Origin: an uncultured Gammaproteobacteria bacterium
GTDB taxonomy: Bacteria; Pseudomonadota; Gammaproteobacteria; HK1
NCBI GenBank assembly: GCA_958295835.1
Contig: OY282378.1
Location: 4,737,694 to 4,801,693 of the forward strand
Length of the DNA: 64,000 nt
Reading direction: 5' to 3'
A program made the translations under genes and the position numbers. This document shows, piece after piece, positions 1,785 through 28,845 of this stretch. The notes below the pieces were generated by a model. It saw nothing but the letters and a program-made list of their open reading frames with translations. It was not told the DNA's origin and searched no databases. The first letter of the stretch is position 1, and the number at the start of each line of letters is the position of its first letter.

Positions 1785-1795
1785 GGGAGCGCACG

Positions 1796-3977: not shown

Positions 3978-4150
3978 CGGAGCCCTTGCCCGATCGGCCT
4001 TGACGAACGCCTCGTCCGGAACGGCGCTCGCCGCCGCCGAGCGGTTCAGCGCAAAGGCGGCGCGGGTCATGGACCGGCGCAAGCCTTGACGGAGCCCTTT
4101 GCCCGATCGGCCTTGACGAACGCCTCGTCCGGAACGGCGCTCGCCGCCGC
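3926..4150 (+). repeat. 112-bp tandem duplication of the ligase 3' end
   Basis: Two nearly identical copies lie head to tail at 3926-4037 and 4038-4150. They begin CGAGCGGTTCAGCGC, include the ligase stop codon and end CTCGCCGCCG. The only difference noticed is one extra T in copy 2 (a run of three T instead of two near 4099). The near identity points to a recent event. Confidence 0.9.
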
Positions 4151-4355
4151 GCCATCGGGCCAGGGGGACGCTCCGGCGATGTACCGCGGCCACCGCGCCG
4201 GCAGCGCTCAAGCCGCTACCGATGACGGTCCAGGCTGCGATGCTCAGTCGGTCACCCGGTTCGTCACGAGCATTTCCCGCTCGATGGAAATGAGTTCGAC
4301 ACAGGCCTGAATCCGTGAGCTCGATTCATGGTGGACTCGCAACGCCGGCGACGCG
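4151..4355. other. Spacer between the ligase and AAA paralogue 2 (convergent)
   Basis: About 205 bases with no gene. At 4157-4190 the sequence GACGCTCCGGCGATG with its flanks resembles the upstream flank of AAA paralogue 2 near 6017-6053 (GCGCTCCGGCGATG), so the paralogue is bracketed by imperfect direct repeats of about 30 bp. No T-tracted terminator was seen. Confidence 0.4.
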
Positions 4356-5984: not shown

Positions 5985-6287
5985 GGGCCGATTATGGCAC
6001 TTGCCGCCCGCCGGTTGGGTCAAGGGGGCGCTCCGGCGATGCGCCGCGCAGGCTGGCACGCCGCCTTCGGCAGGCGCGAAAATGCCGCGCGCTACGCAGC
6101 ATGGGAGAACTCGACTTCGACGAGGCCCCCGGTCACGGCGAAGTGGATGTAGCAGGTCGCCGGGAGTGACGATGGAGTAGCCGGAAGCGGGCCATTCGTT
6201 TCCACCCAGGGCAAAACCGTATCTCGCCACGCCGGCGACGCCCTACAGCATCCAGACGGCCACCTTGCGCCCGACGCCGGCGACGCC
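5985..6287. other. Spacer between AAA paralogues 2 and 3
   Basis: About 300 bases between the start of paralogue 2 and the stop of paralogue 3. The first 40 bases next to paralogue 2 match those upstream of paralogue 3. The distal end holds a partial duplicate of the paralogue 3 gene end (from 6230). No gene is recognised in the middle part. Confidence 0.4.
5991..5999 (-). promoter_or_regulatory. Extended -10 element of AAA paralogue 2, probably leaderless
   Basis: Minus-strand TGC-CATAAT, six bases before the ATG at 5984, the same spacing as in paralogues 1 and 3. No Shine-Dalgarno sequence lies in front of the start codon. Confidence 0.5.
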
Positions 6288-6319
6288 CTACAACTTCCAG
6301 ACCGCCACCTTGCGCCCGT
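6230..6319 (-). repeat. 45-bp tandem repeat of the AAA paralogue 3 gene end
   Basis: The segment starting CGCCGGCGACGCCCTACA occurs at 6230 and again at 6275. The inner copy contains the real C-terminal codons (GRKVAVWKL) and stop; the outer one is a diverged duplicate lying downstream of the stop. Confidence 0.75.
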
Positions 6320-7916
6320 CCTGCCGGCGCCCGCCTCCTCCCGCCTCGCCACCGCCCCGCCGACGTTTCCCGGTCCGGCGGTCGAACACCACCAGATGCC
6401 CTTCCTCCGCTCCGCACTGCGCCATGTACCCCAACGTCTGCTCCACCCCGCGCTCGATGGTCCACGCGAGGCTCTTGCGGTCCGTATCGCGCAACACCTT
6501 GCACTCGACCACGAAACGCTCCCACAGGTCCGACGGCTGCCCCGACTCCCGCGGCCACAGCACCAGCAGGTCCGTCGCACCCCGCCCAAGCCCGTATTCC
6601 CGCTCGATGCGACCGCCCCCGTTCACCACCCGCTGCAGGTACGTCTGCAACAGAAGCTGCGGCCCCGCCTCCCGGTAGTCGAAGCGCCCCATCCAGTGCT
6701 CCGCGTGCTCCCCGAAGAAGGTCCTGAACGCCCTCAACAGCTTCGTCATGTCCAACCGACCGGCGCCGTCCACGTACCACGTCGCCTGGACGTTCGCCAG
6801 ACGCTCCTGCGCCGCCGCCGTCAGCTCGCGCGGCACCACCTCCGCGTAGATCGGGTTCGCCATGCGGATCCCCCGGCCCGATGCGATCAGCCCCAGATCC
6901 CGCACGTAGTCGACGTCGCGCTGGAAGCCGATGTCGGACACCTCACAGCCCGGCTCCTCCGCATCGCTCAGCAACGGCTCGATGACGCGCCGCACCCGTT
7001 CCTCCTCCAGCTTGTGCGCCAATTGGTCCAGATGCGTGCGCCGCGAGAGAATCAACTCCTCCCGAGCCGCGTAGACGTCGTCCACTTCGATGGCGCGCGA
7101 GCGGTCCCGCCCCGCCTTGTTGTCGAAGCACGCCCCCGCGCACAGCGCGTTCACCAGCCACGGCTGGCCCTGGGTCTGCGTCCACACCACATCCAGCGCC
7201 GCCGCCGAGAACCGCTGGCCGGTCTCCTCCGTGTGCTGCGCCATCAGGGCGCGCGTCTCGGCTTCGGTGAAGTCGCCCATGCGCAGCGACTTCGCCGCGA
7301 CGTTGAACGGACTGCCGCCGGCGATGACCTCGCCGGTGCTCGACCGGATGCGGTAGTCGCGGATGTCGCGCACCCCGCACAGCACCACGCTCTGCGGGAA
7401 GCCTTCCGGGCGCTGTTCATAGCCGGCGCGAAGCTGGCGCAGCACCGAGAGCAGGGTGTCGCCGACCAGCGAGTCGATCTCGTCCACCAGCAGCACCAGC
7501 GGCGTCGGGTTCGCCACGCACCAGCGGGTGAGCAGCCTCTTGAGCGCATCTTCAGGCCCCACCTTCGCAAGGATGTCCGGCCAAACCCCATCCGGGTAGT
7601 CGTCGCCCAGAAGCTGCGCGCTCGTGGCCAGACTGCTCAGGATGGCGCGAATGCCGCGTGCGGTGTCGTCACGCGCCACTTGGCCGACCTCCACGTTCAC
7701 GTTCACGCACCGGAAGTGGCCCGCTTCGCCGCGGTTGAGCAGGTTGCGCAGGGCGATGAGCGCGGAGGTCTTGCCCGTCTGCCGCGGCGCGTGCAGCACG
7801 AAGTAGCGTTCCGCCCGAATCAGGGTCAGGAATTCGTCGACGTTCACGCGATCCAACGGTTGGATCGCATAGTGCTTGTCCGGGCGCACCGGCCCTTCGG
7901 TGTTGAAGAAGCGCAT
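6288..7916 (-). CDS. AAA ATPase with C-terminal PD-(D/E)XK nuclease-like domain, paralogue 3
   Basis: A 542-residue protein, nearly identical over its whole length to paralogue 2. It has the same Walker A (APRQTGKTS), Walker B (LVLLVDEIDSL) and nuclease-like motifs (RGATDLLVLW, FVVECKV). Differences cluster in the N-terminal third (for example HYAIQPLDRVNVDEFL against HYTISPLERMDVDELL) while the C-terminal two thirds hardly differ, which suggests gene conversion between copies. The start was chosen at MRFFNTEGPVRPD because it aligns with the other copies and follows the shared -10-like element; an in-frame ATG 15 codons upstream also exists. Function unknown. Confidence 0.8.
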   Translation of the reverse strand: MRFFNTEGPVRPDKHYAIQPLDRVNVDEFLTLIRAERYFVLHAPRQTGKTSALIALRNLLNRGEAGHFRCVNVNVEVGQVARDDTARGIRAILSSLATSAQLLGDDYPDGVWPDILAKVGPEDALKRLLTRWCVANPTPLVLLVDEIDSLVGDTLLSVLRQLRAGYEQRPEGFPQSVVLCGVRDIRDYRIRSSTGEVIAGGSPFNVAAKSLRMGDFTEAETRALMAQHTEETGQRFSAAALDVVWTQTQGQPWLVNALCAGACFDNKAGRDRSRAIEVDDVYAAREELILSRRTHLDQLAHKLEEERVRRVIEPLLSDAEEPGCEVSDIGFQRDVDYVRDLGLIASGRGIRMANPIYAEVVPRELTAAAQERLANVQATWYVDGAGRLDMTKLLRAFRTFFGEHAEHWMGRFDYREAGPQLLLQTYLQRVVNGGGRIEREYGLGRGATDLLVLWPRESGQPSDLWERFVVECKVLRDTDRKSLAWTIERGVEQTLGYMAQCGAEEGHLVVFDRRTGKRRRGGGEAGGGGRRQDGRKVAVWKL

Positions 7917-7922
7917 GGGTCG

Positions 7923-7931
7923 ATTATGGCA
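7923..7931 (-). promoter_or_regulatory. Extended -10 element of AAA paralogue 3, probably leaderless
   Basis: Minus-strand TGC-CATAAT six bases before the ATG at 7916, as in the other two paralogues. Confidence 0.5.
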
Positions 7932-8268
7932 CTTGCCGCCCGCCGGTTGGGCTGGGGACACGGTCGCCGCCGGTGAGGGCGAGCGCCGGCGGCGGTCGTG
8001 GCGCCACCACCGGCGACGCCGGGCGCCTGCGAGATGGAGACGCCCGGAATCGCCGTGACCGGACCGAAGCCTGACGTCCCACGTGGGACATCACCTGGAG
8101 AGCCCTCGCCATGCTCGTCGTCCCAACCTGCGGCGGGCTGCTCCGGAGTCGGGATCCTCCACACCGGTCTGCACCGGAGTGGCGGGGAGTACAACCATGG
8201 CCTCGGCGCAAACGCTCGGACACCGGCCGATACGATGTCGATCGGCGCCGGCGATGACGGTTCTCCGA
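7932..8268. other. Palindrome-rich spacer between AAA paralogue 3 and the TRAP operon end
   Basis: No gene is recognised. Two inverted repeats stand out. One is a near-perfect 22-bp palindrome at 8072-8093 with the core GTCCCACGTGGGAC. The other has arms CCACACCGGT and ACCGGAGTGG around CTGC at 8159-8182. The second could act as a transcript end signal for the TRAP operon, but no T-tract follows it. Confidence 0.45.
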
Positions 8269-9624
8269 CTACCCGCGGAGCACCGCCGGAAGCCACAGCG
8301 TGAGCGCGGGAAACGCGACCAGGACCGCCACGCGCACGAGCTCCGCCCCGAAGAACGGCAGCACGCCAAGGAAGGTCCGGCGCATCGGCACGTCCGGCGC
8401 CTGGGCCGAGATGATGAAGACGTTCATGCCCACGGGGGGCGTGATGAGCCCGAGCTCGACGACGATCAGGGCCAGGACGCCGAACCAGATCTTCAGGTCC
8501 TCCGTGGTCACGCCGAAGGGCGAGTCCGCCGCCGTGGCCCAGTCCCCGCCGTTCAGCTCCACGAGCACCGGCCAGAAGAACGGGATCGCCAACAGGATCA
8601 TCGACAGGCTGTCCATCAGGCATCCCAGCACGATGAGCGCCGCCAGCAGGAGGATCAGGAGCGTCATCGGGGGCAGGCCGGACCCGGCCATCCACCCGGC
8701 CATCGCCTGGGGCACGCCGCCGCGGGACATGAAGATCTTCAACAGCTCCGCGCCGAGGAGGATCAGGTAGATCATGCCGGCGGTGCGCGCCGTCTCCAGC
8801 AGGGCCTCGCGTCCGTCGGCCAAGGACAACTGGCCCTTGACCAGCCCGAACAGGGTCACCATGACCGCGCCCGCGGCGGCCGCCGGCGTCGGATTGAAAA
8901 AACCGAGGTAGATACCGCCGATCACGACGCCGAAGACCAGCGCCACCGGCAGGATGCCGAGGGTCGCGGCGATGAACTCCCCGCGCTCGGGAAGTGCGCC
9001 CTTCGGACCCGCATCGGGGACGATCGTCACGTAGACCAGGATGGTGAAGATGAACAGGGCGACGGCGATCAGCCCGGGGATCAGGGCGGCGGCGAACATC
9101 GTCACGATGTTCGCCTCCACGATGACGGAATAGATGATCAGGATCACCGAAGGGGGGATCAGGATGCCGAGCACCCCGCCGGCCGCGATGGTGCCCGTGC
9201 CCAGGGTGTCGGAGTACCTGTAGCGCTTGAGCTCGGGCAGGGCGACGCGCCCCATCGTCGAAGCCGTGGCCAGCGAGCTGCCGCATACGGCGCCGAATCC
9301 GGCGCAGGCGGCGATGGCCGAAATCGCGACGCCGCCGCGCAGCCAGCCCAGCCACGCATTCGCCGCCCTGAACAGATCCGCGCTCAGGCCGCAACGGGAG
9401 GCGATCGCCCCCATCAGGACGAACAGGGGAACCACGGACAGGTCGTAGATCGAGAACTGGCCGTAGGCGAGATCCTTGAGCTGGCTCAGGACGATGCCGG
9501 GTCCGTTCAGAACGGCGACCCCGACGCCGCCCACCACGATCATGGCGTAGGCGACGGGCACCCGGATCGCGATCAACGCGACGAGCGCGCCCAGTCCGAG
9601 CACGCCGACGGCCACCGGCTCCAT
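8269..9624 (-). CDS. TRAP transporter large permease, DctM type
   Basis: A 451-residue, very hydrophobic membrane protein of the DctM family, the large channel subunit of tripartite ATP-independent periplasmic transporters. The N-terminus MEPVAVGVLGLGALVALIA starts straight into a membrane segment, and many further helices follow, with typical features such as GILIPPSVILIIYSV and ITPPVGMNVF. The start was placed at 9624, two bases after the stop of the small permease gene. Forms a complete TRAP set with the genes at 9627-10163 and 10232-11290. The substrate is probably an organic or aryl acid, given the iorB and thioesterase genes in the same direction (inference). Confidence 0.9.
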   Translation of the reverse strand: MEPVAVGVLGLGALVALIAIRVPVAYAMIVVGGVGVAVLNGPGIVLSQLKDLAYGQFSIYDLSVVPLFVLMGAIASRCGLSADLFRAANAWLGWLRGGVAISAIAACAGFGAVCGSSLATASTMGRVALPELKRYRYSDTLGTGTIAAGGVLGILIPPSVILIIYSVIVEANIVTMFAAALIPGLIAVALFIFTILVYVTIVPDAGPKGALPERGEFIAATLGILPVALVFGVVIGGIYLGFFNPTPAAAAGAVMVTLFGLVKGQLSLADGREALLETARTAGMIYLILLGAELLKIFMSRGGVPQAMAGWMAGSGLPPMTLLILLLAALIVLGCLMDSLSMILLAIPFFWPVLVELNGGDWATAADSPFGVTTEDLKIWFGVLALIVVELGLITPPVGMNVFIISAQAPDVPMRRTFLGVLPFFGAELVRVAVLVAFPALTLWLPAVLRG

Positions 9625-9626
9625 GG

Positions 9627-10163
9627 TCAGCCCGGCTTCGTTCGCGAGATGTCGCCGATCGCTTCGGCCAGCGTGATGATCGACGCAAGGACGAGAAGCG
9701 CCAGCGAAACGAGGGCCGGCACGAAGGCCCACCAGATCGGAATTTCAAGGATCCCGGTGAACTGCTCGTATTCGCGGTAGTCCTGCAGGCCGGCCCCCAT
9801 CCGCCACAGGAGGATGGCCGCGAAGACCACCGCGATGGCCGCGGCCAGGGCCGACATGACCGCCACCGCCCGCGGTCCCGCGCGCATCGTGAAGATGTCC
9901 GCCGAGACGTTGGCCCCGACCAGTTGGCAGTAGGGCAGGAAGCAGAAAGCCGCGACGGCGGCGCCCATTTCCGTCAGCTCGAAGTCGCCGGGAAACGGCC
10001 GGTTGACGATCGCGCCCGCCAGGATGGACCAGGCGTTGACCAGGACGACGCCCACGAGCACGAGCCCGCCCAGCAGGGCCCATCCCGTGATCAGGGAGCG
10101 GGCGGGGCCGAACCGCCCCGCCCGTCCGGCGCCGGAGGGCGCGGTCATCGCCTGGCCCGGCAT
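9627..10163 (-). CDS. TRAP transporter small permease, DctQ type
   Basis: A 178-residue protein with four predicted membrane segments, the usual layout of DctQ. It lies between the solute receptor and the large permease, as is standard for TRAP operons, and its stop is two bases from the DctM start. An alternative start five codons in (MTAPSG, 10148) is possible; neither has a strong ribosome site. Confidence 0.85.
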   Translation of the reverse strand: MPGQAMTAPSGAGRAGRFGPARSLITGWALLGGLVLVGVVLVNAWSILAGAIVNRPFPGDFELTEMGAAVAAFCFLPYCQLVGANVSADIFTMRAGPRAVAVMSALAAAIAVVFAAILLWRMGAGLQDYREYEQFTGILEIPIWWAFVPALVSLALLVLASIITLAEAIGDISRTKPG

Positions 10164-10231
10164 CGCCGGAACCAGGAATCGGCCGGCGAACCATGCTTCG
10201 TCATTTTGTCCAGGCGTCCCCGCGCAAGCGC

Positions 10232-11290
10232 CTAATTGGACATCATGTTCTTCGACACCAGCTCGACCGCCTGGTCATAGAGCGCCTGGCCGTCGATGCC
10301 CTTCTCGTTCATCTCGGCGATCCAGCGCCCGACGACCGGCGCCACCGCCGTTTCAAAGGCCGCCCATTCCTCTTCGGAAAGCTGGACGTGCTCGTTCCCG
10401 CTGTCGGTGGCCATCTTGATGCCGAAGGCTTCGGCGCCGTCCCAGATCTCGCCGACCTTCGCGTGCCACTCCGATCCCGAGGCGTCCTCGAAGATCTTGC
10501 GGACGTCGTCCGGCAGGCCGTTCCAGCGGTCTTCGTTGATGACGACCGAGAACGACGTGGTGCCCAGGCGCTTGCCGCCGGGTCCCTCGATCTGGTAGCG
10601 GGTCTGCTCGTGGATCTTCAGCGGCGGGATGATCTCGAAGGGGATCAGGGCGCCGTCCACGACCTTCTTGGCGAGCGCCGTCGGGATCTCGCCGACCGAG
10701 GTCTTGACCGGGCTCGCGCCGAGGGCTTCGACCACCCACGCTCCCGTGCGCGACGGGATGCGGATTTTCATGCCCGCCAGATCCGCGGGCGAGCGGACCA
10801 GCGTATCCGCCATGTGGATCGCCTGGCCGCCATGCACGTGCTGGAACAGCGCGACGACACCCTTGAAGTCCTTGCCGAGCTCGCCGTCGTACATGGTTTC
10901 CATCGCCATGTTCACGGCGGCGCTGCTGCCCTGGTGCACGCCGGGCAGCTCGAACACCTCGGTCCGCGGGAACTGCCCCGCGGCATAGGCGTTCACGATC
11001 CAGGCCATGTCCACCACGCCGTCACGCACCTGACGCGGAAGCTGCGGCGGGCTGCCGCCCAGCGACATCGCCGGAAAGATCTCGATCGCGATGCGCCCGC
11101 CCGATGCCTCCATGATCGACTGCGCCCAGGGTTCCAGCATCAGCCGGTGCGCCGGCGCCTTCGGCCCCAGGAAGTGGTGGAGCTTGAACTCGAACTCCGC
11201 GGCGTATGCGGTCGTGGTTCCGGCTACCGCGGTTCCGGCAACGGCAATCACCGCCCCGAGGGCGGCCCCCAGCTTGCGAATGGCACTCAT
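10232..11290 (-). CDS. TRAP transporter solute-binding protein, DctP type
   Basis: A 352-residue periplasmic receptor. The start at 11290 is supported by a GGAGG sequence eight bases upstream. A signal peptide of about 30 residues (hydrophobic LGAALGAVIAVAGTAVAG, ending AYAAE) is followed by the DctP fold, including the region around RIPSRTGAWVVEALGASPV that carries the conserved arginine for carboxylate binding. It delivers a carboxylate substrate to the DctQM pair next to it. The three genes make a full transporter, downstream of a thioesterase and iorB on the same strand. Confidence 0.9.
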   Translation of the reverse strand: MSAIRKLGAALGAVIAVAGTAVAGTTTAYAAEFEFKLHHFLGPKAPAHRLMLEPWAQSIMEASGGRIAIEIFPAMSLGGSPPQLPRQVRDGVVDMAWIVNAYAAGQFPRTEVFELPGVHQGSSAAVNMAMETMYDGELGKDFKGVVALFQHVHGGQAIHMADTLVRSPADLAGMKIRIPSRTGAWVVEALGASPVKTSVGEIPTALAKKVVDGALIPFEIIPPLKIHEQTRYQIEGPGGKRLGTTSFSVVINEDRWNGLPDDVRKIFEDASGSEWHAKVGEIWDGAEAFGIKMATDSGNEHVQLSEEEWAAFETAVAPVVGRWIAEMNEKGIDGQALYDQAVELVSKNMMSN

Positions 11291-11367
11291 CTTGATTCCC
11301 TCCAGTGTGGTCTTCGTTCTCGTGAGCGTGAAACGGCCCTGTGTCCCAGGCGTCCGGCCTTTCATGA

Positions 11368-11793
11368 TCAGGCTCCCCGGTCAATCCGGAAGATTGCAAT
11401 GACCTCCTCGGGTACCGGGCAAGCCGTGATGCCCTCGCCATCCGCCGACTTCGCGACGAGAACGCGCTTTTCGAACCCTTCCACCGCCAGGACGTCGCCG
11501 CGCATCAGCCGGTGCTCGACGTCGAAGCTCGACCTGCCGAAGCGGGTGATCCGCGTTTCTATCGTGACCTCGTCGCCATGTCTCGACGGTACATGAAAGA
11601 TGGCGCGGGTATCGACCATCGGGAACCCCACGACGTCGTAGCGCCTGACGAGCTCCGGCTTCGAGAGGCCGGCCGCCCTGAAGTGGTTGGCGGTCGAGGC
11701 GTCGAACCAGCAGAAATACCGAGGGTAGAACACGATGTTGGCCGGATCGCAGTCGCCCCATTCGATCAGGATGGTGCGGCGGCTAGTGAACAT
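11368..11793 (-). CDS. Hot-dog acyl-CoA thioesterase (4-hydroxybenzoyl-CoA thioesterase type)
   Basis: A 141-residue single hot-dog domain protein. The N-terminal segment IEWGDCDPANIVFYPRYF has the Asp and surrounding pattern typical of 4-hydroxybenzoyl-CoA thioesterases (D-x-x-G/N-I-V-Y/F). The start at 11793 overlaps the end of iorB by 11 bases, so the two are probably translated together. It would hydrolyse an aryl-acyl-CoA, possibly the product of the neighbouring indolepyruvate:ferredoxin oxidoreductase; this link is inferred from context. Confidence 0.8.
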   Translation of the reverse strand: MFTSRRTILIEWGDCDPANIVFYPRYFCWFDASTANHFRAAGLSKPELVRRYDVVGFPMVDTRAIFHVPSRHGDEVTIETRITRFGRSSFDVEHRLMRGDVLAVEGFEKRVLVAKSADGEGITACPVPEEVIAIFRIDRGA

Positions 11794-13540
11794 TCGCCGG
11801 CGCCTCTTTCCGCCCCCGTTCCGGCTTCGTAAACGGGACCGATATGCCGCGCAGCCTGCCATCCGGCCCGCTGTCCGGTCCTTCGGATGGCATGTCTTCT
11901 CCGGCAAGCAGGGCATCGAGGGCCGCATGGCGTTCGTCCGCCATCGCCGCCGCGACGGCCTTGCGCAGCCGGTCCGCGTGGTCCGCGGTGGTGCCGGAAG
12001 ACAGGGCGGGCCGGACGATCGCCTCCATGATCCTGGACCAGGCCGCAAGCCCACGCTGCATCGTATCGGAATAGCCCTTGCGCAGGCGGGGAAGCTCCGC
12101 CAAGGCGCAGGCGAAAGCCGCCGATGCCGGCAAGGCTACGGTGAAAGCCCGCAACCATTCCTCGATGGACTGCTGTTCACGATGGTAGCGCAACGAGCGC
12201 CGGCGGATGCGTTTCAGGGACGCGACGAGGCGCAGCATCCAGTATCCCGGAGCGCCGTTCGAGCGCACGTTGATGCCGCAGCCGAGCAGGGGAAGGCCCT
12301 TTCCCGCTTCGACCCGCGCCATGATCCGCTTGCCGATGCCCACCGGCATGACGTCCGCCACCTCCTCGGCGCGGGGCTTGAGGTATTCGGTCACGTGCAG
12401 GATCTGGCCCGGCTGCATCCGGCTCTCCGACCGGATGCGCCGGAAGCGTTCATGCCGCGTCTTCAGATCGGCCACCCGGGCGACGTCTTCGTAGGCCATC
12501 CACAATGCGAGGCGACGGCTGGCCTCGGTCACGGCGTGGAGCGCCTGCGGATCGCGGAGGTCGGCCCCGGCCAGCAGCGTCCCGACCCTCTCCGCATAGA
12601 GGGCCGCATAGCGCTCGTCCTGGAAGTCCAGCACGCGGGCACGGCCGTATCCGATCACCTCCGCCAGGGATGCGGGCAACCCTTCGGTGCCTTTGGCGCC
12701 GGGCAACCCTTCCGCGCCTTCGGATCTGGGCAACCTTTCAGCGCCTTCGGTGCCGGATAGTCCTTCCGCGCCTTCAGTGCCGGGCAACCCTTCGGTGCTT
12801 TCGGCGCCGGGCATCCCGCGCAGGAGCGCATCCGGCAGCGGCGCCCCGGACTCGGCCTCGCTCTCGCCCGTACCACCGTCGTCCTCGTCCGCACCGCCCT
12901 CACCCATACCCCCTCGGTCCGTGTCGACCGCGGCTATGGCCGCCTCCATCCCCTTGAGACTGGCTTCGGCAGAACTTCCCGTGCCCAGTACACCCTTGGA
13001 AAGTTCGACCGGCCAGGGCAACGCGCCGCTGCCCGCCAGCGCTCCGAAGAGGGTTGCGCTGACGAAGGTTCCGTGCTGCGTGGCGAGCGCTTGCAGATCC
13101 AGAAGATGGGCGGACTTCGCAAGGGTCCCGGCGGCGGTCCTGATTGTTTCTTCGTCGAACCGGCCGTCGCCCATGGCGATCTTTTCCGCGGTGGAATAGA
13201 CCCGGCTCGTGGAGGCGATCAGGGTCGTCAATCCGGGCGAGACGAAGCCGCCTTCCATGACCCGGGCCGCCTCGACGAGCTCGCTGGCCAGCACCACGTC
13301 CACCCGGCCCGGCATCGGCACCAGGCTGAAGACCGGAGCGGCCCCGCCGTCGGCAATTTCGACGTAGTAGCTCGTGGACCCGGTCCTCTGCGCCACCCCG
13401 GGCACCGACGTCGCCTGTACGCCGTAGCCCGCCGCCCGCGCGGCGGCCACGATCCAGTTCATCAGGACCCCGCCCCCTTCGCCGCCGAGGGCGCAGATCA
13501 GGATGCGCAGCGGCACCCCGGCGTTCCGCATCGTGCTCAT
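11783..13540 (-). CDS. iorB: Indolepyruvate:ferredoxin oxidoreductase beta subunit, intact copy
   Basis: A 585-residue protein whose N-terminal 190 residues form the gamma-type domain of 2-oxoacid:ferredoxin oxidoreductases (start MSTMRNAGVPLRILI, then CALGGEGGGVL). The large C-terminal domain is that seen in proteobacterial IorB proteins (tail PFTKPERGRKEAPANVH). With IorA it oxidatively decarboxylates aryl pyruvates to aryl-acetyl-CoA. The start overlaps by four bases the stop of an iorA remnant, the ancestral iorAB junction. A low-complexity linker (residues about 240-290) is built of 9-residue repeats. The only intact iorA in the window lies at 17074-19332, so the functional enzyme must be assembled from two loci. 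Confidence 0.85.
   Translation of the reverse strand: MSTMRNAGVPLRILICALGGEGGGVLMNWIVAAARAAGYGVQATSVPGVAQRTGSTSYYVEIADGGAAPVFSLVPMPGRVDVVLASELVEAARVMEGGFVSPGLTTLIASTSRVYSTAEKIAMGDGRFDEETIRTAAGTLAKSAHLLDLQALATQHGTFVSATLFGALAGSGALPWPVELSKGVLGTGSSAEASLKGMEAAIAAVDTDRGGMGEGGADEDDGGTGESEAESGAPLPDALLRGMPGAESTEGLPGTEGAEGLSGTEGAERLPRSEGAEGLPGAKGTEGLPASLAEVIGYGRARVLDFQDERYAALYAERVGTLLAGADLRDPQALHAVTEASRRLALWMAYEDVARVADLKTRHERFRRIRSESRMQPGQILHVTEYLKPRAEEVADVMPVGIGKRIMARVEAGKGLPLLGCGINVRSNGAPGYWMLRLVASLKRIRRRSLRYHREQQSIEEWLRAFTVALPASAAFACALAELPRLRKGYSDTMQRGLAAWSRIMEAIVRPALSSGTTADHADRLRKAVAAAMADERHAALDALLAGEDMPSEGPDSGPDGRLRGISVPFTKPERGRKEAPANVH
12674..12808 (-). repeat. 27-bp minisatellite inside iorB
   Basis: Five units with a period of 27 bp (unit starts at 12674, 12701, 12728, 12755 and 12782). 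On the protein level they give nine-residue repeats of the type AEGLPGTEG in the linker between the two IorB domains. Because 27 is a multiple of three, copy number can vary without breaking the frame. Confidence 0.85.
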
Positions 13541-13758
13541 GCTTGCGGGACCCCCGTGAAGAAGGCGTCGAGGTGCGACTTGACGCGGTCCCACCAGCGC
13601 GGGCTGCCAACGATCCCCGCCCGCCGGAACGGCGCACGGAGCGCCGCCGCGTGAGTCGGCTCGCCACAAGGCCCGCGGCCGTGGACATCGTCGCCGTTGC
13701 CGTTACCGTTGCCGAGCTCCAGGCTTTCGATCTCTCTCTTGGGGCACGAGCGTTCCAA
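13537..13758 (-). pseudogene. iorA: iorA remnant with large internal deletion
   Basis: This 73-codon frame starts with TTG as (M)ERSCPKREIESLELG, matching the start of intact IorA (MERSFATEIESLTLG). After a short GN-rich stretch it jumps to the last about 43 residues (CGEPTHAAALRAPF, WWDRVKSHLDAFFTG, against CGELAHAATLCPSF, WWDRMKARLDTFFTG in the intact copy). About 690 internal codons are missing, including the TPP domain and nearly all cluster cysteines. Its stop overlaps the start of the intact iorB by four bases. It is the decayed partner of that gene. Confidence 0.85.
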
Positions 13759-14055
13759 GCCGGGTTCCTCCTCGGGCTGGTGCCTGGAAGATCAGCGAAT
13801 AGAGGGCGATGTACAGTCAAACGGACGCTTGTTCAACCGAGATGCAGTATGACGATTGGCGCCGATCGTCGCGAGCAGCGCGGGCGCTCCCGTCCCTGGC
13901 TGCTGATCCGTATCCGGTTCGAGTGGTTCGGGGAGATGGCGCCGGAGATCCGAGGTGCGCCCCGGCAACACGCCGTGGGCGCGGGCGCAACGTGCGTCAC
14001 CGTCTCGCTCGTCCGATACTATGACAGGCAACTGTTTCACACCGGGACATCCGCC
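13759..14055. other. Spacer upstream of the iorA remnant
   Basis: Nearly 300 bases without a gene. The part near 13730-13770 (GAGCGTTCCAAGCCG) and the part at 13855-13890 (GTCGCGAGCAGCGCGG) match the repeat array upstream of intact iorA at 19316-19566, in decayed form. So both iorA loci share the same ancestral upstream region. Confidence 0.5.
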
Positions 14056-14403
14056 ATGACTCCCCCCGCCACCATGCACACCGGCCCCCGCGGCTCCACC
14101 ATCCACGTCCTCCGCGCCGACGCCGGCACCATCACCCAGCTCGCCGCCATCGACTGGAACCGCTACTTCCGCCGGGTCTGCCTCGACCCGGTGCGCGGCC
14201 TCATTACCCTCATGTCGCCTTCACACCCCCACGAAGACCTGACCGGGGTCCTGGACCGTATCGTGGACGCGGTGGCCCGGATCGTGCGTCGGCGGCAGCA
14301 GGCGAGCGTGCGGGTGCGGGAGGAAGCGACGGCGTACCCCACCCATCGAGGCGGGCGCGGCCCACGTCCCGGCTCCATCAAGCCCGCCAACCGACCACTG
14401 TAG
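14056..14403 (+). pseudogene. Truncated Uma2-type (DUF820) endonuclease-like gene
   Basis: 115 codons. The N-terminal part resembles Uma2 proteins: RRVCLDPVRGLITLMSPSHP, followed by HEDLTGVLDRIVDAVAR. Full Uma2 proteins are about 190 residues and carry a PD-(D/E)XK-like core with Asp and Glu-x-Lys; here the sequence stops matching after VREEATAY and ends in an unrelated proline-rich tail, so the catalytic half is missing. No ribosome site is seen. It sits in the rearranged zone between the two iorAB loci. Confidence 0.65.
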
Positions 14404-14422
14404 ATGAGCAAGAGGATACGGA

Positions 14423-15607
14423 ATGACCCCTGAAGCAAGTCCGTTCAGACCCGGACAACCAATACCAATCGAGTTCTTCGTTGGCCGAAGTGCCGAAATC
14501 GAACGCCTGAGCAGCATGGTTCGAGGCGGCGCGCAAGGGCGTTTCGGAATCGGCTTCGTCAGCGGCGAACGAGGCATCGGCAAGAGCTCGCTCGCCGCCT
14601 TCGTCCGCCATCTGGTCGAGATGAACGACGACGCGGTCGGGTGTCACGTCTTTCTTGGAGGCGTCCAGGACCTCGGGGAGATGCTGCGCCGGACGCTCGA
14701 CCGTCTCTTGAACCAAAGCATCGACAGGCCATGGCACCAGCAGATGGTCGATTTCTTCGGCGATCGCGTTCGCAAGGCAGGCTTCTTTGGCGTCACGCTC
14801 GAGCTGGATCTTCAAGACAGCGATTTGTCTTCGGTCGAACACGACTTCGTGCCGTCGATGAGACGTTTGCTGGAGGGAATCAGGAACAAGAAATCGCTCT
14901 TCCTGATCCTGGACGACATCAACGGACTGGCAGGGTCCGCCGATTTTGCCAATTGGCTGAAGAGCACCGTGGATGAAATCGCCACTTCCCGTCAGGAAAC
15001 CAGACTTTGTATCCTCGTGGTCGGACTCGAGGAAAGACGACGGGATCTGGTTGCGGTTCAACCATCCCTGGCCCGAGTGTTCGAGCTGATCGACATCGTG
15101 CCTTGGTCCGGCGATGAAGTCATGGAGTTCTACCAGAAATCGTTTCATGCCGGCAAGGCGGAAGTGTCGGATGAAAGCTTGGAGAGGTTGCAATTTTTTA
15201 CCGGCGGTCTGCCGGTTCTGGCGCATGAGATCGGTGACGCGGTTTGGCGTACGGCTCGTGGTCCGAAGATAAGGGACAACGAAGTGACGGAAGGCATCGT
15301 GACGGCTGCCGACGTGATCGGAAGAAAGTGGCTGGAACCCCAGGTGTTCGACGCCATTCGCAGCGAACGCTACCGCTCGATTCTCGGCGAGATCGCCGAC
15401 AAGCCTTTCGGACTACGTTTCACGCGAGCGGAAATCCTCGAACACCTGACTGAGAAGGACAGGCCCGTTCTGGACAATTTCCTGCGCCGAATGAGGAAAT
15501 TGGGGGCATTGGAAGCGGATCCCGGTATCCGCGGAGGATATCGTTTCCCCAACCATCTTCATGCACTGTACATCTACATGGAAAAAGGCGCGCTGCCAGG
15601 ATCATGA
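14423..15607 (+). CDS. STAND/ORC-like ATPase
   Basis: A 394-residue P-loop ATPase. Walker A is GERGIGKSS (residues 48-56) after the entry FFVGRSAEIERL that typifies AAA_16/ORC-like domains, and Walker B is SLFLILDDIN. The C-terminal 100 residues look like a winged-helix domain (EILEHLTEKDRPVLDNFLRR). A GAGG sequence lies seven bases before the ATG. The protein lacks a long sensor repeat region, so it is shorter than typical STAND regulators. It has no obvious operon partner. Stand-alone ATPases of this type are common in accessory regions; a regulatory or defence role is possible but not shown. Confidence 0.7.
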   Translation: MTPEASPFRPGQPIPIEFFVGRSAEIERLSSMVRGGAQGRFGIGFVSGERGIGKSSLAAFVRHLVEMNDDAVGCHVFLGGVQDLGEMLRRTLDRLLNQSIDRPWHQQMVDFFGDRVRKAGFFGVTLELDLQDSDLSSVEHDFVPSMRRLLEGIRNKKSLFLILDDINGLAGSADFANWLKSTVDEIATSRQETRLCILVVGLEERRRDLVAVQPSLARVFELIDIVPWSGDEVMEFYQKSFHAGKAEVSDESLERLQFFTGGLPVLAHEIGDAVWRTARGPKIRDNEVTEGIVTAADVIGRKWLEPQVFDAIRSERYRSILGEIADKPFGLRFTRAEILEHLTEKDRPVLDNFLRRMRKLGALEADPGIRGGYRFPNHLHALYIYMEKGALPGS

Positions 15608-15656
15608 AACGGAAGACTCGTCACGATCTCGCCACCGCCCGCCCCTCGGCCAGACA

Positions 15657-15684
15657 CTGTTAAAATCCGTGGTACATTTATAAT
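15657..15684 (+). promoter_or_regulatory. Sigma-70-like promoter of the orphan secreted protein
   Basis: A perfect TATAAT lies at 15679-15684, preceded by a weak -35 (CTGTTA, 15657-15662) with 16 bases between. The gene at 15723 follows with an AGGAG ribosome site at 15711-15715. Confidence 0.6.
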
Positions 15685-15722
15685 AACCCCAGCATTCGGC
15701 TGAAAGATCAAGGAGAGTGACG

Positions 15723-16532
15723 ATGCGTAGTCTGATAACAATCGCGATGATGGTGTTAAGCATAAGTGCGCAGGCTGAATGGAGGCAATGGTCATCCGAA
15801 GACCCGATGAATGACACGGTCCGCAAAGGAATGGCATCTGCATTGACTGCCTCCATGAAGATGATGTCATTTCCGTACCAGGATACCAAGGCAGTCTTGG
15901 GTGTATCCTGTGATGATACCGGAGCATACATGAGGTTCACGAACAGTCCCAATTTGTCAGGAGATACCACACACGACGGATACAACTCCATACGCCTGAG
16001 GGTGCGCAAGGACAACGATCAGGTTCGAGGGATCAAATTCGTTCAGAATTGGGGATCGGATCAGCTTTCCACTACATTTCCACCGATGCGTAACATCGTA
16101 CTGGAAGGCCAAACGCTACTGGTGGAGATCCCTTGGCACGGCCAAGGGAAAGTACACTTCAAGTTCGACCTTACCGGATCATCCGACATGTACAAGCGAA
16201 CATGTCACGAGCGTATACTGCAGGATAAGGCGAACGCCGAAAAGCGTGCCAAAGATAGCGCACGGCGAGAGAAAGAACAGGCAGAAGAAGCCAAGAGGCT
16301 CAAGGATCTTGCGGACAAACGCGCGGCTTTGAATAGCGCGTTCACCGCCAAATATCCAAGGCGCTCAAGCAGCCCGCGGTTGGCGCAGGACATAAAGGCA
16401 GCTACAGGCACACCCTGCAGGATACGATATACCGCATCCAGCATCAGCCCGGAAGGAATCGTTATTGCGTGTAAGGGCAGCCAAGATCGGCTCTGGAAGA
16501 CAGATGGGAACATCGTTACGCTGAGTCGATAG
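15723..16532 (+). CDS. Orphan secreted protein with coiled-coil segment
   Basis: A 269-residue protein of unknown family. It has a clear signal peptide (MRSLITIAMMVLSISAQA, cut before E19). A beta-rich domain of about 150 residues follows, then a charged helix rich in Ala, Lys and Glu (residues about 160-205, likely coiled coil), and a small C-terminal domain with one Cys pair (TPCRIRY, IVIACKG). A start at 15717 is possible, but the AGGAG at 15711 favours ATG 15723. The gene has a good sigma-70 promoter and a hairpin after the stop. Base composition is clearly richer in A+T than the neighbours, suggesting horizontal transfer. Periplasmic location is predicted from the signal peptide. Confidence 0.75.
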   Translation: MRSLITIAMMVLSISAQAEWRQWSSEDPMNDTVRKGMASALTASMKMMSFPYQDTKAVLGVSCDDTGAYMRFTNSPNLSGDTTHDGYNSIRLRVRKDNDQVRGIKFVQNWGSDQLSTTFPPMRNIVLEGQTLLVEIPWHGQGKVHFKFDLTGSSDMYKRTCHERILQDKANAEKRAKDSARREKEQAEEAKRLKDLADKRAALNSAFTAKYPRRSSSPRLAQDIKAATGTPCRIRYTASSISPEGIVIACKGSQDRLWKTDGNIVTLSR

Positions 16533-16541
16533 GGCGATGAC

Positions 16542-16584
16542 GACCAAAATCCACTATGCCTTGTGATCATGGTGGATTTTGGTC
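16542..16584 (+). terminator. Long hairpin after the orphan secreted protein gene
   Basis: Arms GACCAAAATCCACTATG (16542-16558) and CATGGTGGATTTTGGTC (16568-16584) pair over 17 bp with one G-T wobble and a nine-base loop. It starts ten bases after the stop codon. There is no strong T-run after it, so it may be a transcript stabiliser or bidirectional terminator rather than a classic Rho-independent site. Confidence 0.6.
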
Positions 16585-16793
16585 TACATGTTATACATAA
16601 TAGTAATCTCCATACGCTAATCAGGCCATAACGCCGTCCTTTGAAGGATCCGAACATGCATATGCAGGGACTTACATTTGAAATAATACAATCCGTTTTG
16701 ATGCTATATTGCACTTTCCTGAGTCATTGGAGGTTCCAAGAGGATCGAGCATCACCTTGACATTGCTAGGGAAAGAACTTATTTCCCTTTGCG
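16585..16793. other. AT-rich spacer before the iorB remnant
   Basis: About 210 bases, much richer in A+T than the rest of the window, with runs such as ATGTTATACATAATAG. No gene is recognised. The sharp return to high GC at about 16793 marks the breakpoint with the iorB remnant. Confidence 0.5.
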
Positions 16794-17077
16794 ATGACCC
16801 GGGCCGCCTCGACGAGCTCGCTGGCCAGCACCACGTCCACCCGGCCCGGCATCGACATCAAGCTGAAGACCGGAGCGGCCCCGCCTTCGGCAATTTCGAC
16901 GTAGTAGCTCGTGGAACCGGTCCTCTGCGCCACCCCGGGCACCGACGTCGCCTGTACGCCGTAGCCCGCCGCCCGCGCGGCGGCCACGATCCAGTTCACC
17001 AGGACCCCGCCCCCTTCGCCGCCGAGGGCGCAGATCAGGATGCGCAACGGCGCCTTGGCGTTCCGCATTGTGCTCAT
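16794..17077 (-). pseudogene. iorB: iorB remnant (5' end only)
   Basis: About 95 codons of the start of IorB (MSTMRNAKAPLRILI, then ALGGEGGGVLVNW) ending abruptly after ELVEAARV, where the high-GC coding sequence meets AT-rich DNA. It is very similar to the first 95 codons of the intact iorB at 11783-13540, with only a handful of changes (for example NAKAPL for NAGVPL). Its start overlaps the stop of intact iorA by four bases, so it is the decayed partner of that gene. Confidence 0.85.
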
Positions 17078-19332
17078 GCCTGCGCCAACCCCGTGAAGAA
17101 CGTGTCGAGGCGCGCCTTCATGCGGTCCCACCAGCCCGGATTGCTGATGATCTCGGCCCGCCAGAACGACGGGCAGAGCGTCGCCGCATGGGCCAGCTCG
17201 CCGCACAGCCCGCAGCCGACGCAGCCGTTGGTCACGTGGGCCACGGGGTCCGACTTCAGGGGATCGCCGGGGGTCCTGACGGTCAGAGTCGGGCAGCCCG
17301 AGAGCCGGATGCAGGAATGGTCGCCGGTGCAGGTGTCCTCATCGACCCCGAACCGCGTCCGTACCACCCGCTCGCCCGCGGCCAGCGCCCGGACCCGGAC
17401 CGGCTTGGCCCGCCGCTGGCGTTCCAGTTGGCATTCGCCCTCGGCGACGATGACCTTGAGCCCCCTGAAACGCGACCGGAACGCCTCGATCAACGTCTTG
17501 CGCATCTTCTCGACGCGGTAGGTGTGGACCGTGCGCAGCCACTTGACGCCCACTCCCTTCAGCGCGTCCTCGATGGTGGTCTCGGTGTGGGTCGCGCTCT
17601 CGCCGGCTGATGCGGGCGGCGACTTCTGGCGCAGTCGCTTGGCGATTCCGCTACGCGGAATCGCGGGCACCTCCGCCAGCGCTACGGACGGGCGAGGAAC
17701 GGGTTTGTCCCCTGCAAGCTTCCGTGCCTTGTCCGGCGAAGAGAGCACCTCCTGCGCGCCCGTGGCCGAGGTGTAGCCGTTCTTCATGATGACCAGCACC
17801 CCGTCGCCCCCGTTCATCAGCCGCGAGGCGACGCCCGACAACAGCCCGTTGTGCCAGAACCCGCCGTCGCCCATCACCGCCAGGGGCGGCTTCTTCTGGA
17901 AGCTCGCGACCCCGGCGTTGGAGGCCAGGCTCATCCCGTAGCCGAGGATCGAGTTGCCGTAGTTGAACGGAGCGAAGGTCGCGAAGGCATGGCAGCCGAT
18001 GTCCGCCGAATAGTGCACCTTGCCGATGTCCCGTTCCGCCAGCTTGAGCGCTGCGAAGAAGGGCCGTTCCGGGCAACCGGTGCAGAACCCGGGCGGTCGC
18101 GGCGGGACCGGCGCCCCGAGAAGACGCTTCGCCGTGGCCTTCAGCGCCGCGATTTCCCCGGCGTAGGCGTCGCTGCCTGGCATATTGCCCACGGCGGGCA
18201 GATGCTTGCGCAGAAAGGCGGAGACCCCGTCCATGAGCACTTCCGAACGGTACTCGCCGGCCATGGGCAGCACGTCCTTGCCCGACAGCGCCGCCCGCAC
18301 GTCCGCGCGGCGCAGGATCGAGCCGATTTCATGTTCGATGTATTCCGGCTGCCCTTCCTCGACCACCAGAAGCGCCGACTTGCCCCTGGCGAAGTCCAGG
18401 ATCTCCTCGGGCACGAGCGGGTAGACGACGTTCAGGACGAGGATCGGCAGGTCGCTGTTCCCTTCGACGTCCGCCAGATCCAGCTCGTGCAGCGCCCGCA
18501 GCAGCGCGTTGCAGATCCCGCCCTGCACGATGATCCCGACGTTCCCGCGCCGCCCGTGCCCACCGTCGAACACTTCGTTGAGGCCCAGCCTGCGGATGCA
18601 GGCGCGCGCGGCGGGCATCCGCTCGTCGTATTTCCGTTTCTCGTGGGCGAAGGTCGCCGGAGGATGCGCGAGGTGGTCGTACCGGTGCGGCGCCGGCTCG
18701 GACAGGATCTCCTTCATCGACACCCTCGGCGCGACGTTGTCCCTGGCGACGAAGCTGCCCTGGACGTGGCAGGCGCGAATGCGCAGCTCCAGCATGACCG
18801 GCGTGTTCGACGCCTCGGACAGCTCGAAGGCGCTTTCGGCGCATTGCACGATGGTTTCGAGGTCGGGGCGCGGGTCCATCAGCCAGATGGCGGACTTCAT
18901 GGCGTAGGCGTGGGTGCGTTCCTGGATGACGCTGGCCCCGTCGCCGTAATCCTCGCCGACGACGATCAGCGTGCCCCCCGTCACCCCGGGCGAGGCGAGG
19001 TTCGACAGCGCATCGGCGGCGACGTTGGTGCCGACGATCGACTTCCAGGTCACCGCCCCGCGCACGGGGTACATGATCGAGGCCCCGAGCATCGCCGCCG
19101 CCGATGCCTCGTTCGTGCAAGGCTCGACGTGGACGCCGAGCCCGGCCATCTGCGGGGCGGCCTGGACCATGACGTCGATCAGGTGGGACACCGGTGCGCC
19201 CTGGTATCCCCCGACATAGGACACCCCCGACTGCAACAGCGCCTTGGTCACGGCGAGAATGCCCTCGCCGTGGAACACCTCGCCGTCGCCGAGGGTCAGG
19301 CTTTCGATCTCTGTTGCGAACGAGCGTTCCAA
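17074..19332 (-). CDS. iorA: Indolepyruvate:ferredoxin oxidoreductase alpha subunit, intact copy
   Basis: A 752-residue protein with the full IorA layout: N-terminal pyruvate:ferredoxin oxidoreductase domain, TPP-binding domain (FCTGCPERPFFAAL, SADIGCHAFA, AVMGDGGFWHNGL) and a C-terminal iron-sulfur part with clusters in DTCTGDHSCIRLSGC and NGCVGCGLCGELAHAATLC. With IorB it converts aryl pyruvates to aryl-acetyl-CoA with ferredoxin reduction. The likely start is TTG at 19332, with GAGGAG ten bases upstream. An insertion of roughly 35 residues (around PAIPRSGIAKRLRQKS) between the TPP domain and the cluster domain comes from a palindromic repeat. The expected partner gene behind it is only a fragment; the intact iorB is 3.5 kb away. 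Confidence 0.9.
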   Translation of the reverse strand: MERSFATEIESLTLGDGEVFHGEGILAVTKALLQSGVSYVGGYQGAPVSHLIDVMVQAAPQMAGLGVHVEPCTNEASAAAMLGASIMYPVRGAVTWKSIVGTNVAADALSNLASPGVTGGTLIVVGEDYGDGASVIQERTHAYAMKSAIWLMDPRPDLETIVQCAESAFELSEASNTPVMLELRIRACHVQGSFVARDNVAPRVSMKEILSEPAPHRYDHLAHPPATFAHEKRKYDERMPAARACIRRLGLNEVFDGGHGRRGNVGIIVQGGICNALLRALHELDLADVEGNSDLPILVLNVVYPLVPEEILDFARGKSALLVVEEGQPEYIEHEIGSILRRADVRAALSGKDVLPMAGEYRSEVLMDGVSAFLRKHLPAVGNMPGSDAYAGEIAALKATAKRLLGAPVPPRPPGFCTGCPERPFFAALKLAERDIGKVHYSADIGCHAFATFAPFNYGNSILGYGMSLASNAGVASFQKKPPLAVMGDGGFWHNGLLSGVASRLMNGGDGVLVIMKNGYTSATGAQEVLSSPDKARKLAGDKPVPRPSVALAEVPAIPRSGIAKRLRQKSPPASAGESATHTETTIEDALKGVGVKWLRTVHTYRVEKMRKTLIEAFRSRFRGLKVIVAEGECQLERQRRAKPVRVRALAAGERVVRTRFGVDEDTCTGDHSCIRLSGCPTLTVRTPGDPLKSDPVAHVTNGCVGCGLCGELAHAATLCPSFWRAEIISNPGWWDRMKARLDTFFTGLAQA
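17634..17711 (-). repeat. Dispersed palindromic element inserted in frame in iorA
   Basis: Contains the perfect 10-bp inverted repeat GCGATTCCGC-TAC-GCGGAATCGC, followed by a GGGCGAGGAAC...TTGTCCCC section. The same palindrome with flanking TCGCTTG occurs at 45347-45373 (loop TGC), and the second section recurs at 28862-28893 and 45375-45402. In iorA it is translated as part of an extra loop (AIPRSGIAKRL), like the palindromic elements found inside Rickettsia genes. Confidence 0.7.
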
Positions 19333-19566
19333 GCCGTGGTTCTCCTCAAGCCGGCGATGTCATCGCGGGTAGCGCGGCACTCCCGCGATCGGTCTCTTGT
19401 GCGAACGAGCGTTGCAAGTTGCGGTTCTCCTCAAACCGGCGATGTCATCGCGGGTAGCGGGGACACTCCCGCGATCGGTTTCTTGTGCGAACGAGCGTTC
19501 CAAGCCGCAGTCCTTCTCAAGCCGGCGCCGTCGTCGCGAGCAGCGCGGACACTCCCGCGACCGCCA
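19316..19566 (-). repeat. Three tandem 85-bp repeats carrying the iorA translation start
   Basis: Units begin at 19316, 19401 and 19487 (periods 85 and 86). Each unit contains, on the minus strand, a GAGGAG- or GAAGGA-like ribosome site, a TTG codon and the codons for (M)ERSFA or (M)QRSFA. The two upstream units also carry an inverted repeat ATCGCGGG...CCCGCGAT. The iorA-proximal unit supplies the real start; the upstream two would encode short leader peptides, one of which ends in a TGA overlapping the next ribosome site. Confidence 0.85.
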
Positions 19567-19692: not shown

Positions 19693-20841
19693 TCAGCATC
19701 TTCCCCCCATCATACGCCGTCCACTCTGCGCCGTAGCGCGTTCGGAATCGGAACGCGGAAAGACCCGCCCCTCGAACAGCTTGCGCGCCGTGCGCAGCAC
19801 CGCGGCCCGGGCGATCTTCAGCGCTCCGTTCTCCGCGGACACGTGCATCATCACGCTGGTCTCGCCGATGGGATGCTCCACGGAAACCAGCTTTTCCTCT
19901 CCGGCGGGCACCTGCGCCAGGGCGCCGGCGGGGGAATCCGGCAACATGCAGGCGGTGGCGACGCTCACCGCGCCGAGCACGCCGATCGACGCATGGCAGC
20001 GGTGCGGGATGAAGGTGCGGGTGGCGATGGCGCCGCCGGCGCGGGGCGGGGCCACCATCGTCATCTTCGGCACGGACTTGTCCTTCACGTCGCCCAGGTT
20101 CATCAGCGGCCCCGCCTGTCGCCGGATCGTTTCCAGCCTTTCCTTCAGGGCGCCGTCCGCGTCCAGCGCCTCGCGGCTCTCATACCCGCTGACCCCCAGA
20201 TCCTCCGCTCGCATCACCACCACCGGCATGCCGTTGTCGATGCACGTGGCCTCGATGCCGGCGATCACGTCGGCGGCGTTCCCCGTGGGCAGCAAGGCGC
20301 CGCAGGTCGATCCGGCCGCTTGCGGGAAGTTCTGGAGCACCGGCGCCGCGGCGCCGGGCACCCCGTCGATCCGCGCGCTCCCTTCGTAGGTCACGACGCC
20401 GCCCGGGGTCTCGATGGTCACCCCGGCGACCTGATCGCTGTTGACCATGTGGACGGCGACCTCGGTGCGGCCGTCCGCGGCCCGCACCAGCCCCTTCTCC
20501 ACCGCGAACTGGGCGACGCCGGCGAGGATGTTTCCGCAGTTCTGCCGGTCCGTGACCACGGCCCGGTCGACGAACACTTGCAGGAACAGGTACTCGACGT
20601 CGGCGTCCGGGCGCTCGGAGGCGGCCACCACCGCCACCTTGCTGGTCAGGGGATCGGCGCCGCCGATGCCGTCGATCTGCCGGGGGTCGGGCGAGCCCAT
20701 CACCGCCAGCAGCAGGGCGTCGCGCTCCGCCTCGGCGGCCGGCAGGTCGTGCTCGAGGAAATAGGCGCCCTTGGACGTCCCGCCGCGCATCCAGGTGCAG
20801 GGAATGCCCTGGATACCTTCCCTCGGCTTCCCTTCCCTCAT
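19693..20841 (-). CDS. PrpF/GalD family isomerase (4-oxalomesaconate tautomerase-like)
   Basis: A 382-residue PrpF-family protein. It has the family's N-terminal IPCTWMRGGTSKGAYFL, the motif QIDGIGGADPLTSKVA, a catalytic-type cysteine in NCGNILAGV and another in HRCHASIG. The closest match in pattern is GalD (4-oxalomesaconate tautomerase of gallate and protocatechuate meta-cleavage); 2-methylaconitate isomerase PrpF is the alternative. No other genes of those pathways are adjacent. The start at 20841 overlaps the remnant PIN gene by four bases. Confidence 0.85.
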   Translation of the reverse strand: MREGKPREGIQGIPCTWMRGGTSKGAYFLEHDLPAAEAERDALLLAVMGSPDPRQIDGIGGADPLTSKVAVVAASERPDADVEYLFLQVFVDRAVVTDRQNCGNILAGVAQFAVEKGLVRAADGRTEVAVHMVNSDQVAGVTIETPGGVVTYEGSARIDGVPGAAAPVLQNFPQAAGSTCGALLPTGNAADVIAGIEATCIDNGMPVVVMRAEDLGVSGYESREALDADGALKERLETIRRQAGPLMNLGDVKDKSVPKMTMVAPPRAGGAIATRTFIPHRCHASIGVLGAVSVATACMLPDSPAGALAQVPAGEEKLVSVEHPIGETSVMMHVSAENGALKIARAAVLRTARKLFEGRVFPRSDSERATAQSGRRMMGGRC

Positions 20842-27957: not shown

Positions 27958-28845
27958 ATGCCCGCGCACGCCGACACCCCCGAGCCCGCCCCCGCCTCCG
28001 TCCACGGCCCCGCGCGCGAGGCGTGGGCGATGTTCATCCGCAACAAGTCCGCGATCGCGGGACTGGTGCTGATGACGCTGGTGCTGGCGCTGACCCTGAT
28101 CGTGCCGGCGTTCTACCCGGTCGATCCCTTCGACATCGTATGGGGGCCGCTGGCCCCGCCCGGCGCCGCTCCGGAGATACCGCTGGGATCCGATTTCGTC
28201 GGGCGCGACGTGCTGGCCGGGATCATCCACGGCGGGCGGGCCACGCTCGCGGTGGGAGCCAGCGCCGCGATGATTACGGTGGTGATCGGCATCGGCATCG
28301 GCGCCGCGGCCGGGTTCTACGGCGGCTTCGCCGACGAGATGCTCATGCGGCTCACCGAGTTCTTCCAGGTGCTGCCGGCGCTGCTCTTCGCAATGGTGCT
28401 GGTGAGCCTGTTCAGCCAGAGCCTCACCACCATCGCCATCGCCATCGGGGTGGTGAGCTGGCCGCCGGTGGCCCGCCTCACGCGGGCGGAGTTCCTCAAG
28501 ATCAAGGAGCTGGAGTACGTCAAGGCGGCCCGCGCGATCGGCGCCCGCAACCGGCGCATCATCTGGCGGGTGATCCTGCCGAACGCCCTGCCGCCCCTCA
28601 TCGTCTCCGCCACCCTGACCATCGGCGTCGCGATCCTGTTCGAGGCGGGGCTCTCGTTCCTCGGTCTCGGCGATCCGAACGTCATGAGCTGGGGGCTGAT
28701 GATCGGCTTCAACCGCGATTTCGTGGTCGATGCCTGGTGGGCGGTGACCTTTCCGGGCCTCGCGATCTTCGTCACCGTGCTGAGCGTGAGCCTGATCGGC
28801 GACGGACTCACCGACGCCCTCAACCCCAAGCTGCGAGACCGGTGA
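27958..28845 (+). CDS. Peptide ABC transporter permease, DppC type
   Basis: A 295-residue inner-membrane protein. N-terminal OppC-like segment (REAWAMFIRNKSAIAGLVLM), then the permease domain with the EAA-type loop EYVKAARAIGARNRRIIWR. It follows the DppB-like gene after 14 bases, and its stop overlaps the GTG start of the next ATPase gene by four bases. Confidence 0.9.
   Translation: MPAHADTPEPAPASVHGPAREAWAMFIRNKSAIAGLVLMTLVLALTLIVPAFYPVDPFDIVWGPLAPPGAAPEIPLGSDFVGRDVLAGIIHGGRATLAVGASAAMITVVIGIGIGAAAGFYGGFADEMLMRLTEFFQVLPALLFAMVLVSLFSQSLTTIAIAIGVVSWPPVARLTRAEFLKIKELEYVKAARAIGARNRRIIWRVILPNALPPLIVSATLTIGVAILFEAGLSFLGLGDPNVMSWGLMIGFNRDFVVDAWWAVTFPGLAIFVTVLSVSLIGDGLTDALNPKLRDR

Follow-up and report, generated by a model that had tools for sequence, protein, structure and literature searches.

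The closest described relatives of the arrangement studied here are the proteobacterial iorA-iorB operons (PRK08312 with DUF6537), as found in Nioella and Alterinioella, in which the two genes are complete and adjacent. In three of these loci (L067, L069 and L117) the gene order is iorA, iorB, thioesterase, and TRAP transporter genes come next in L069. The fused IOR proteins (PRK13029/PRK13030) are predicted to catalyse the same reaction, but consist of one chain of about 1180 aa instead of two subunits. Another kind of known system also bears on this locus, since one of the genes described below contains a short palindromic insert. The Rickettsia palindromic elements (RPE) were reportedly described by Ogata et al. 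in 2000. Such elements stay open in one reading frame within the protein genes that carry them (PMC2229807).

We analysed a stretch of 64,000 nucleotides (the window) from the genome of an uncultured gammaproteobacterium (G000). The window encodes the same proteins as the proteobacterial iorA-iorB operons, with an IorA that is 79-80% identical to theirs (alignment A1), and the same downstream thioesterase. However, the genes are distributed over two loci, each of which carries a remnant of the partner gene, and both proteins have acquired inserts. The adjacency of iorA and iorB in one operon, which is usual but not strictly defining, was not found, as genes on the opposite strand intervene, and intact iorA and intact iorB are about 3.5 kb apart. 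No split iorAB was found in the literature. All features of the two ior loci given below are read from the minus strand.

At locus 2, an intact iorA gene encoding 752 aa from a TTG start was identified at 17074-19332 by its open reading frame, by a family match and by alignment with 34 relatives. Its predicted product is the TPP-binding and Fe-S subunit of indolepyruvate:ferredoxin oxidoreductase, and both the TPP motif and the Cys-rich Fe-S motifs were invariant among the 35 aligned sequences. PF02775 was matched above its cut-off, and the TIGR03336 match of 235 bits lay under that model's cut-off of 650.9. Through an ATGA at 17074-17077, iorA overlaps an iorB stub (16766-17077). The homology of this stub to iorB extends over 284 nt (16794-17077, about 95 codons) and then switches abruptly to foreign sequence, which contributes eight codons (AKGNKFFP) and a stop; the foreign DNA past this point has a lower G+C content. 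The earlier note, made from the sequence of the window, had described locus 2 as an intact iorA joined to about 95 codons of iorB, which our analysis confirmed. Neither iorB codons 96-585 nor the downstream thioesterase gene has left a trace at this locus. Three tandem 86-bp repeats (19293-19549) cover the ribosome-binding and start region of iorA, and every copy comprises a ribosome-binding site and a TTG. The gene upstream of iorA (19693-20841) encodes a 4-oxalomesaconate tautomerase according to its family match, and such a gene was absent beside ior in all 86 loci compared.

At locus 1, about 3.2 kb downstream of locus 2, iorA is represented by a remnant consisting of one open, in-frame ORF of 73 codons (13537-13758), which was recognised by comparison of the junctions and by a genome-wide match to IorA residues 705-752. 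In this ORF, about 24 N-terminal codons are fused to 46 C-terminal codons, and about 682 codons have been deleted in frame. The remnant has kept its TTG start as well as an AGGAGGA-type ribosome-binding site, and the cysteines of the Fe-S motifs are partly gone. We also considered whether the open frame itself argues for a function of the remnant, and rejected this argument because 37-49% of simulated neutral copies were open too, so that an open frame is not significant in itself. The remnant overlaps an intact iorB (11783-13540; PRK08312) through an ATGA at 13537-13540. Thus, the reported joining of an iorA remnant to an intact iorB was borne out, as was the retention of the four-base overlap at both loci, and the codon counts of 22 and 43 were off by only a few. 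IorB has 585 aa with a POR domain and DUF6537, and is full length according to NCBIfam PRK08312 (505.8 bits, cut-off 348). Within iorB, 27-bp tandem repeats (12673-12816) encode collagen-like repeats of nine residues, which fall within about residues 210-290, a stretch missing in relatives. Given that the ribosome-binding site, the start codon and the overlap into iorB all persist, the iorA remnant may act as a translational leader.

The end of iorB is overlapped by a 4HBT thioesterase gene (11368-11793), assigned by its family match and by the neighbourhoods of relatives, and its product is 79-80% identical to the thioesterases beside iorB in the three loci from Nioella and Alterinioella. Next to it lies a TRAP transporter, dctP-dctQ-dctM (8269-11365), in the same order as after iorA-iorB-thioesterase in L069. 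Locus 1 has therefore kept the ancestral gene context, with iorB, thioesterase and TRAP genes as in the relatives, indicating that it is the native site. Judging from this gene order, the ancestral site is most likely locus 1, from which iorA was lost, and locus 2 is most likely a displaced copy. No relative carrying two full copies of this ior lineage was found. Separately, we observed loci with two iorA and one iorB in other bacteria (L097, L100, L123 and L126).

Between the two loci lies an ATPase-bearing module (13893-16793), which was delimited by gene families, G+C content and comparison with a sister genome. It contains an AAA ATPase gene (14423-15607, plus strand), a gene for a small protein that belongs to no family (15717-16532, plus strand) and, at 14044-14340, the remnant of a dispersed gene that has suffered an internal deletion and has five other copies in the genome (L041-L045). 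The G+C content was 51-59% over 14.5-17 kb, as compared with 66-70% outside. A 22-bp inverted repeat with a 9-nt loop (16537-16589) is located where the iorB stub and the 15717-16532 gene converge, and is a candidate bidirectional terminator, although the consensus scan did not call it. A consensus promoter scan of the region found nothing. Two assignments were considered and rejected: the dispersed gene resembled Uma2 by eye only, and the window copy had no significant Pfam match; a defence role for the module received no PADLOC support (best E 0.009).

We then compared the window with the sister genome G003. From the TRAP genes to iorB, G003 is collinear with the window (about 94%). As in the window, iorB of G003 adjoins part of the ATPase module; the portion at 14265-14688 of the window is common to both genomes and stands beside iorB in both. 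Only 135 bp around an iorA-iorB junction remain in G003, and these are of the locus-2 type, differing at 4 of 114 sites from locus 2 and at 22 of 114 from locus 1; the iorA end is not followed by a full iorB. Since the adjacency of iorB and the module is common to G003, the split predates both species and is no assembly artefact. An artefact, which the earlier note had named as a way in which its reading could fail, would mean that a single operon only seems divided, through a chimeric join or a collapsed repeat, and 425 bp at 90% identity between the loci would be able to mislead an assembler. Nevertheless, we consider this extremely improbable: 43 bases distinguish the two copies of the repeat, the genome consists of a single contig, and G003, assembled independently, shows both the iorB-module adjacency and the locus-2-type iorA end, on which ground this explanation was discarded. 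As a side observation, the dS of the TRAP genes between G000 and G003 was only about 0.03, versus 0.12 for iorB, which suggests recent conversion or transfer. Several similar copies of the window's 4.3-8 kb region were also present in both genomes (L166 8773-19001 and L167, against window 1-11324).

The duplicated parts of the two loci were then compared. The junction repeat common to both is identical at 382 of 425 nt, far above chance, but the differences are unevenly distributed. In the iorA part, 32 of 141 sites differ (23%; dS about 0.42, from few sites), versus 11 of 284 sites (4%, or 96% identical; dS 0.054) in the iorB part. This contrast was significant over all sites (Fisher p=6e-9) and by an approximate synonymous count (about 7e-4). 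The related upstream region that had been claimed for both loci is present but weak, with 79% identity over 68 bp covering the ribosome-binding site and first codons, and one 35-bp block at 91%. Within the genome, it is confined to these two loci; with no other genomic matches, a chance likeness and a dispersed 86-bp element were both rejected. The uneven divergence shows that a single duplication of one age is insufficient, and calls for either a later homogenisation of the iorB ends or two events. Scaled against the iorB dS of about 0.12 between G000 and G003, the iorA duplication, as estimated from a dS of about 0.42 over a short sequence, predates the split from the sister species, and the young look is limited to the iorB 5′ ends (dS 0.054). 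The description of the loci as a recent snapshot of gene loss could not be upheld on these figures.

Based on these results, we favour, with some reservation, a partial duplication followed by in-frame deletion of iorA at the native locus 1 and later homogenisation of the iorB starts, with IorA and IorB still pairing. An operon of iorA, iorB, thioesterase and TRAP genes would have undergone tandem duplication of its 5′ part, comprising the upstream region, iorA and at least 95 codons of iorB. At locus 1, the iorA copy would then have lost its central codons in frame, leaving the 73-codon leader still overlapping iorB, while at locus 2 iorA would have stayed intact with only a stub of iorB, and the ATPase-bearing module would have come to lie between the loci. 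Gene conversion would probably have homogenised the iorB 5′ ends at a later time. The IorA encoded at locus 2 and the IorB encoded at locus 1 would most likely assemble into one arylpyruvate:ferredoxin oxidoreductase, and would be produced from separate transcripts with their own promoters, the genes in between being on the opposite strand. From the protein families, the thioesterase would hydrolyse the arylacetyl-CoA product.

The earlier note had instead read the two loci as reciprocal loss. Under this alternative, the whole iorAB would have been duplicated; iorA would then have disappeared from locus 1, and from locus 2 the 3′ part of iorB and all that followed it, their place being taken by the ATPase module. 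The abrupt end of the stub inside iorB at foreign DNA is what a broken, once complete gene would leave, and the duplication of both the junction and the upstream region agrees with this course of events. However, it would require an additional loss that a partial duplication does not, no trace of the missing iorB part or thioesterase was found near locus 2, and loss alone does not explain the divergence of 23% versus 4%. We therefore regard true reciprocal loss as possible but somewhat improbable, and as stated it was not supported: a partial duplication with a single loss, together with homogenisation, fits at least as well.

A genome-wide search of the single 5.73-Mb contig identified a single intact IorA and a single intact IorB (PRK08312 type), along with the two remnants. 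Each subunit gene is intact at one locus only and no second intact two-subunit ior copy was found in the genome, in agreement with the claim that duplication left the intact subunit genes in two separate half-loci. A further complete iorAB, which had been put forward as evidence that would overturn this picture, does not exist in the genome, but a second IOR does: a gene at 794 kb codes for a complete IOR fused into a single chain (1691 bits, cut-off 952). It leaves the proposed dependence of one enzyme on the split pair unproven, and may serve as a backup for the split enzyme. In G003, the 5′ half of iorB is deleted, and the gene carries an in-frame stop and an IS-like insert (L166:6349-7621) with inverted ends of about 19 bp and a target duplication of 8-10 bp. 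G003 has thus lost both iorA and iorB, indicating that the split pair is dispensable, at least in that species, and we conclude that the arrangement is unusual but probably dispensable.

These findings raise the alternative that both ior loci are on their way out, with IorA and IorB only incidentally intact while the fused IOR does the work. The fused IOR is complete and 97% conserved between G000 and G003, iorA and iorB of G003 have been wrecked, and both surviving proteins carry lineage-specific insertions. Against this, the 752 and 585 codons are open with no lesion in G000, the conserved motifs are intact, and the dN/dS of iorB between the two genomes was 0.415, below 1 at p=0.002, a value that fits one constrained lineage with G003 decaying. 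Such joint decay is rather unlikely in our view. Against the favoured reading of a working pair stand the empty promoter scan, the loss of both genes in G003 and the inserts: the 34-residue insert of IorA, near the TPP site, was predicted to be disordered (pLDDT about 30, in a mediocre AlphaFold model with a mean pLDDT of 67.8), and iorB carries the repeat expansion, so that either protein could be impaired. Among solved structures, no true homologue of IorA or IorB was found by sequence.

The IorA insert, residues ~537-571, is missing in all relatives compared. We found that these roughly 34 extra residues stem from a copy of a palindromic coding repeat, dispersed in the genome and inserted here in frame (17610-17718, minus strand), an element of about 105 bp that ends in two adjacent hairpins. 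A covariance-model scan, in which 150 candidates were scored per genome so that the counts are lower bounds, identified at least 147 copies in G000 and at least 146 in G003; by the same model, G005 had seven, and 14 further genomes of the family had none. With a strict pattern, 66 copies were found in G000, whereas 368 other genomes of the class yielded none. Stops occurred in the iorA frame in none of 60 copies, but in 13 and 23 copies in the two remaining forward frames. Several copies are situated within genes for recognised proteins, Pfam SWI2/SNF2 domains among them. Further copies are present in the window at 45321-45411 and 28790-28894, and elsewhere (L189-L228 and L232-L234). The iorA site is occupied here and empty in the relatives compared, which are distant. 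The gene for the fused IOR carries the element in frame in G003 (L227:3797-3869), and the site is empty in G000 (L229), although this is one case and its flanks have changed. Taken together, these results make it probable that a new family of coding palindromic elements (consensus peptide approximately LVWNKTVPRPSTALAGAPAIPRSGIAKRPRQRSPLA) entered iorA and the sister's fused IOR in frame, that it has at least 145 copies per genome while being nearly absent from the rest of the family, and that it behaves like RPE in bacteria with 5.7-Mb genomes.

The loss of duplicated genes, partial or reciprocal, and the conversion of tandem copies are general and well-known processes that would be at work here too. 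Compared with the usual outcome of duplication and loss, the window is unusual in that two subunits of one complex are encoded on separate half-operons with in-frame remnants. It provides a dated intermediate of operon break-up, from a two-subunit enzyme to two half-operons and then, in the sister species, to loss, and makes it testable whether coupled subunit dosage matters. We consider the palindromic element more interesting than the split operon. It provides a naturally occurring series of in-frame insertions, together with an unoccupied site in a sister genome, for studying the spread of coding palindromes and the tolerance of proteins. Like RPE, it is a palindromic repeat of about 105 bp with many copies, inserted in frame in protein genes, a likeness of form; it differs from RPE in its two adjacent hairpins and in its occurrence in a lineage with 5.7-Mb genomes.
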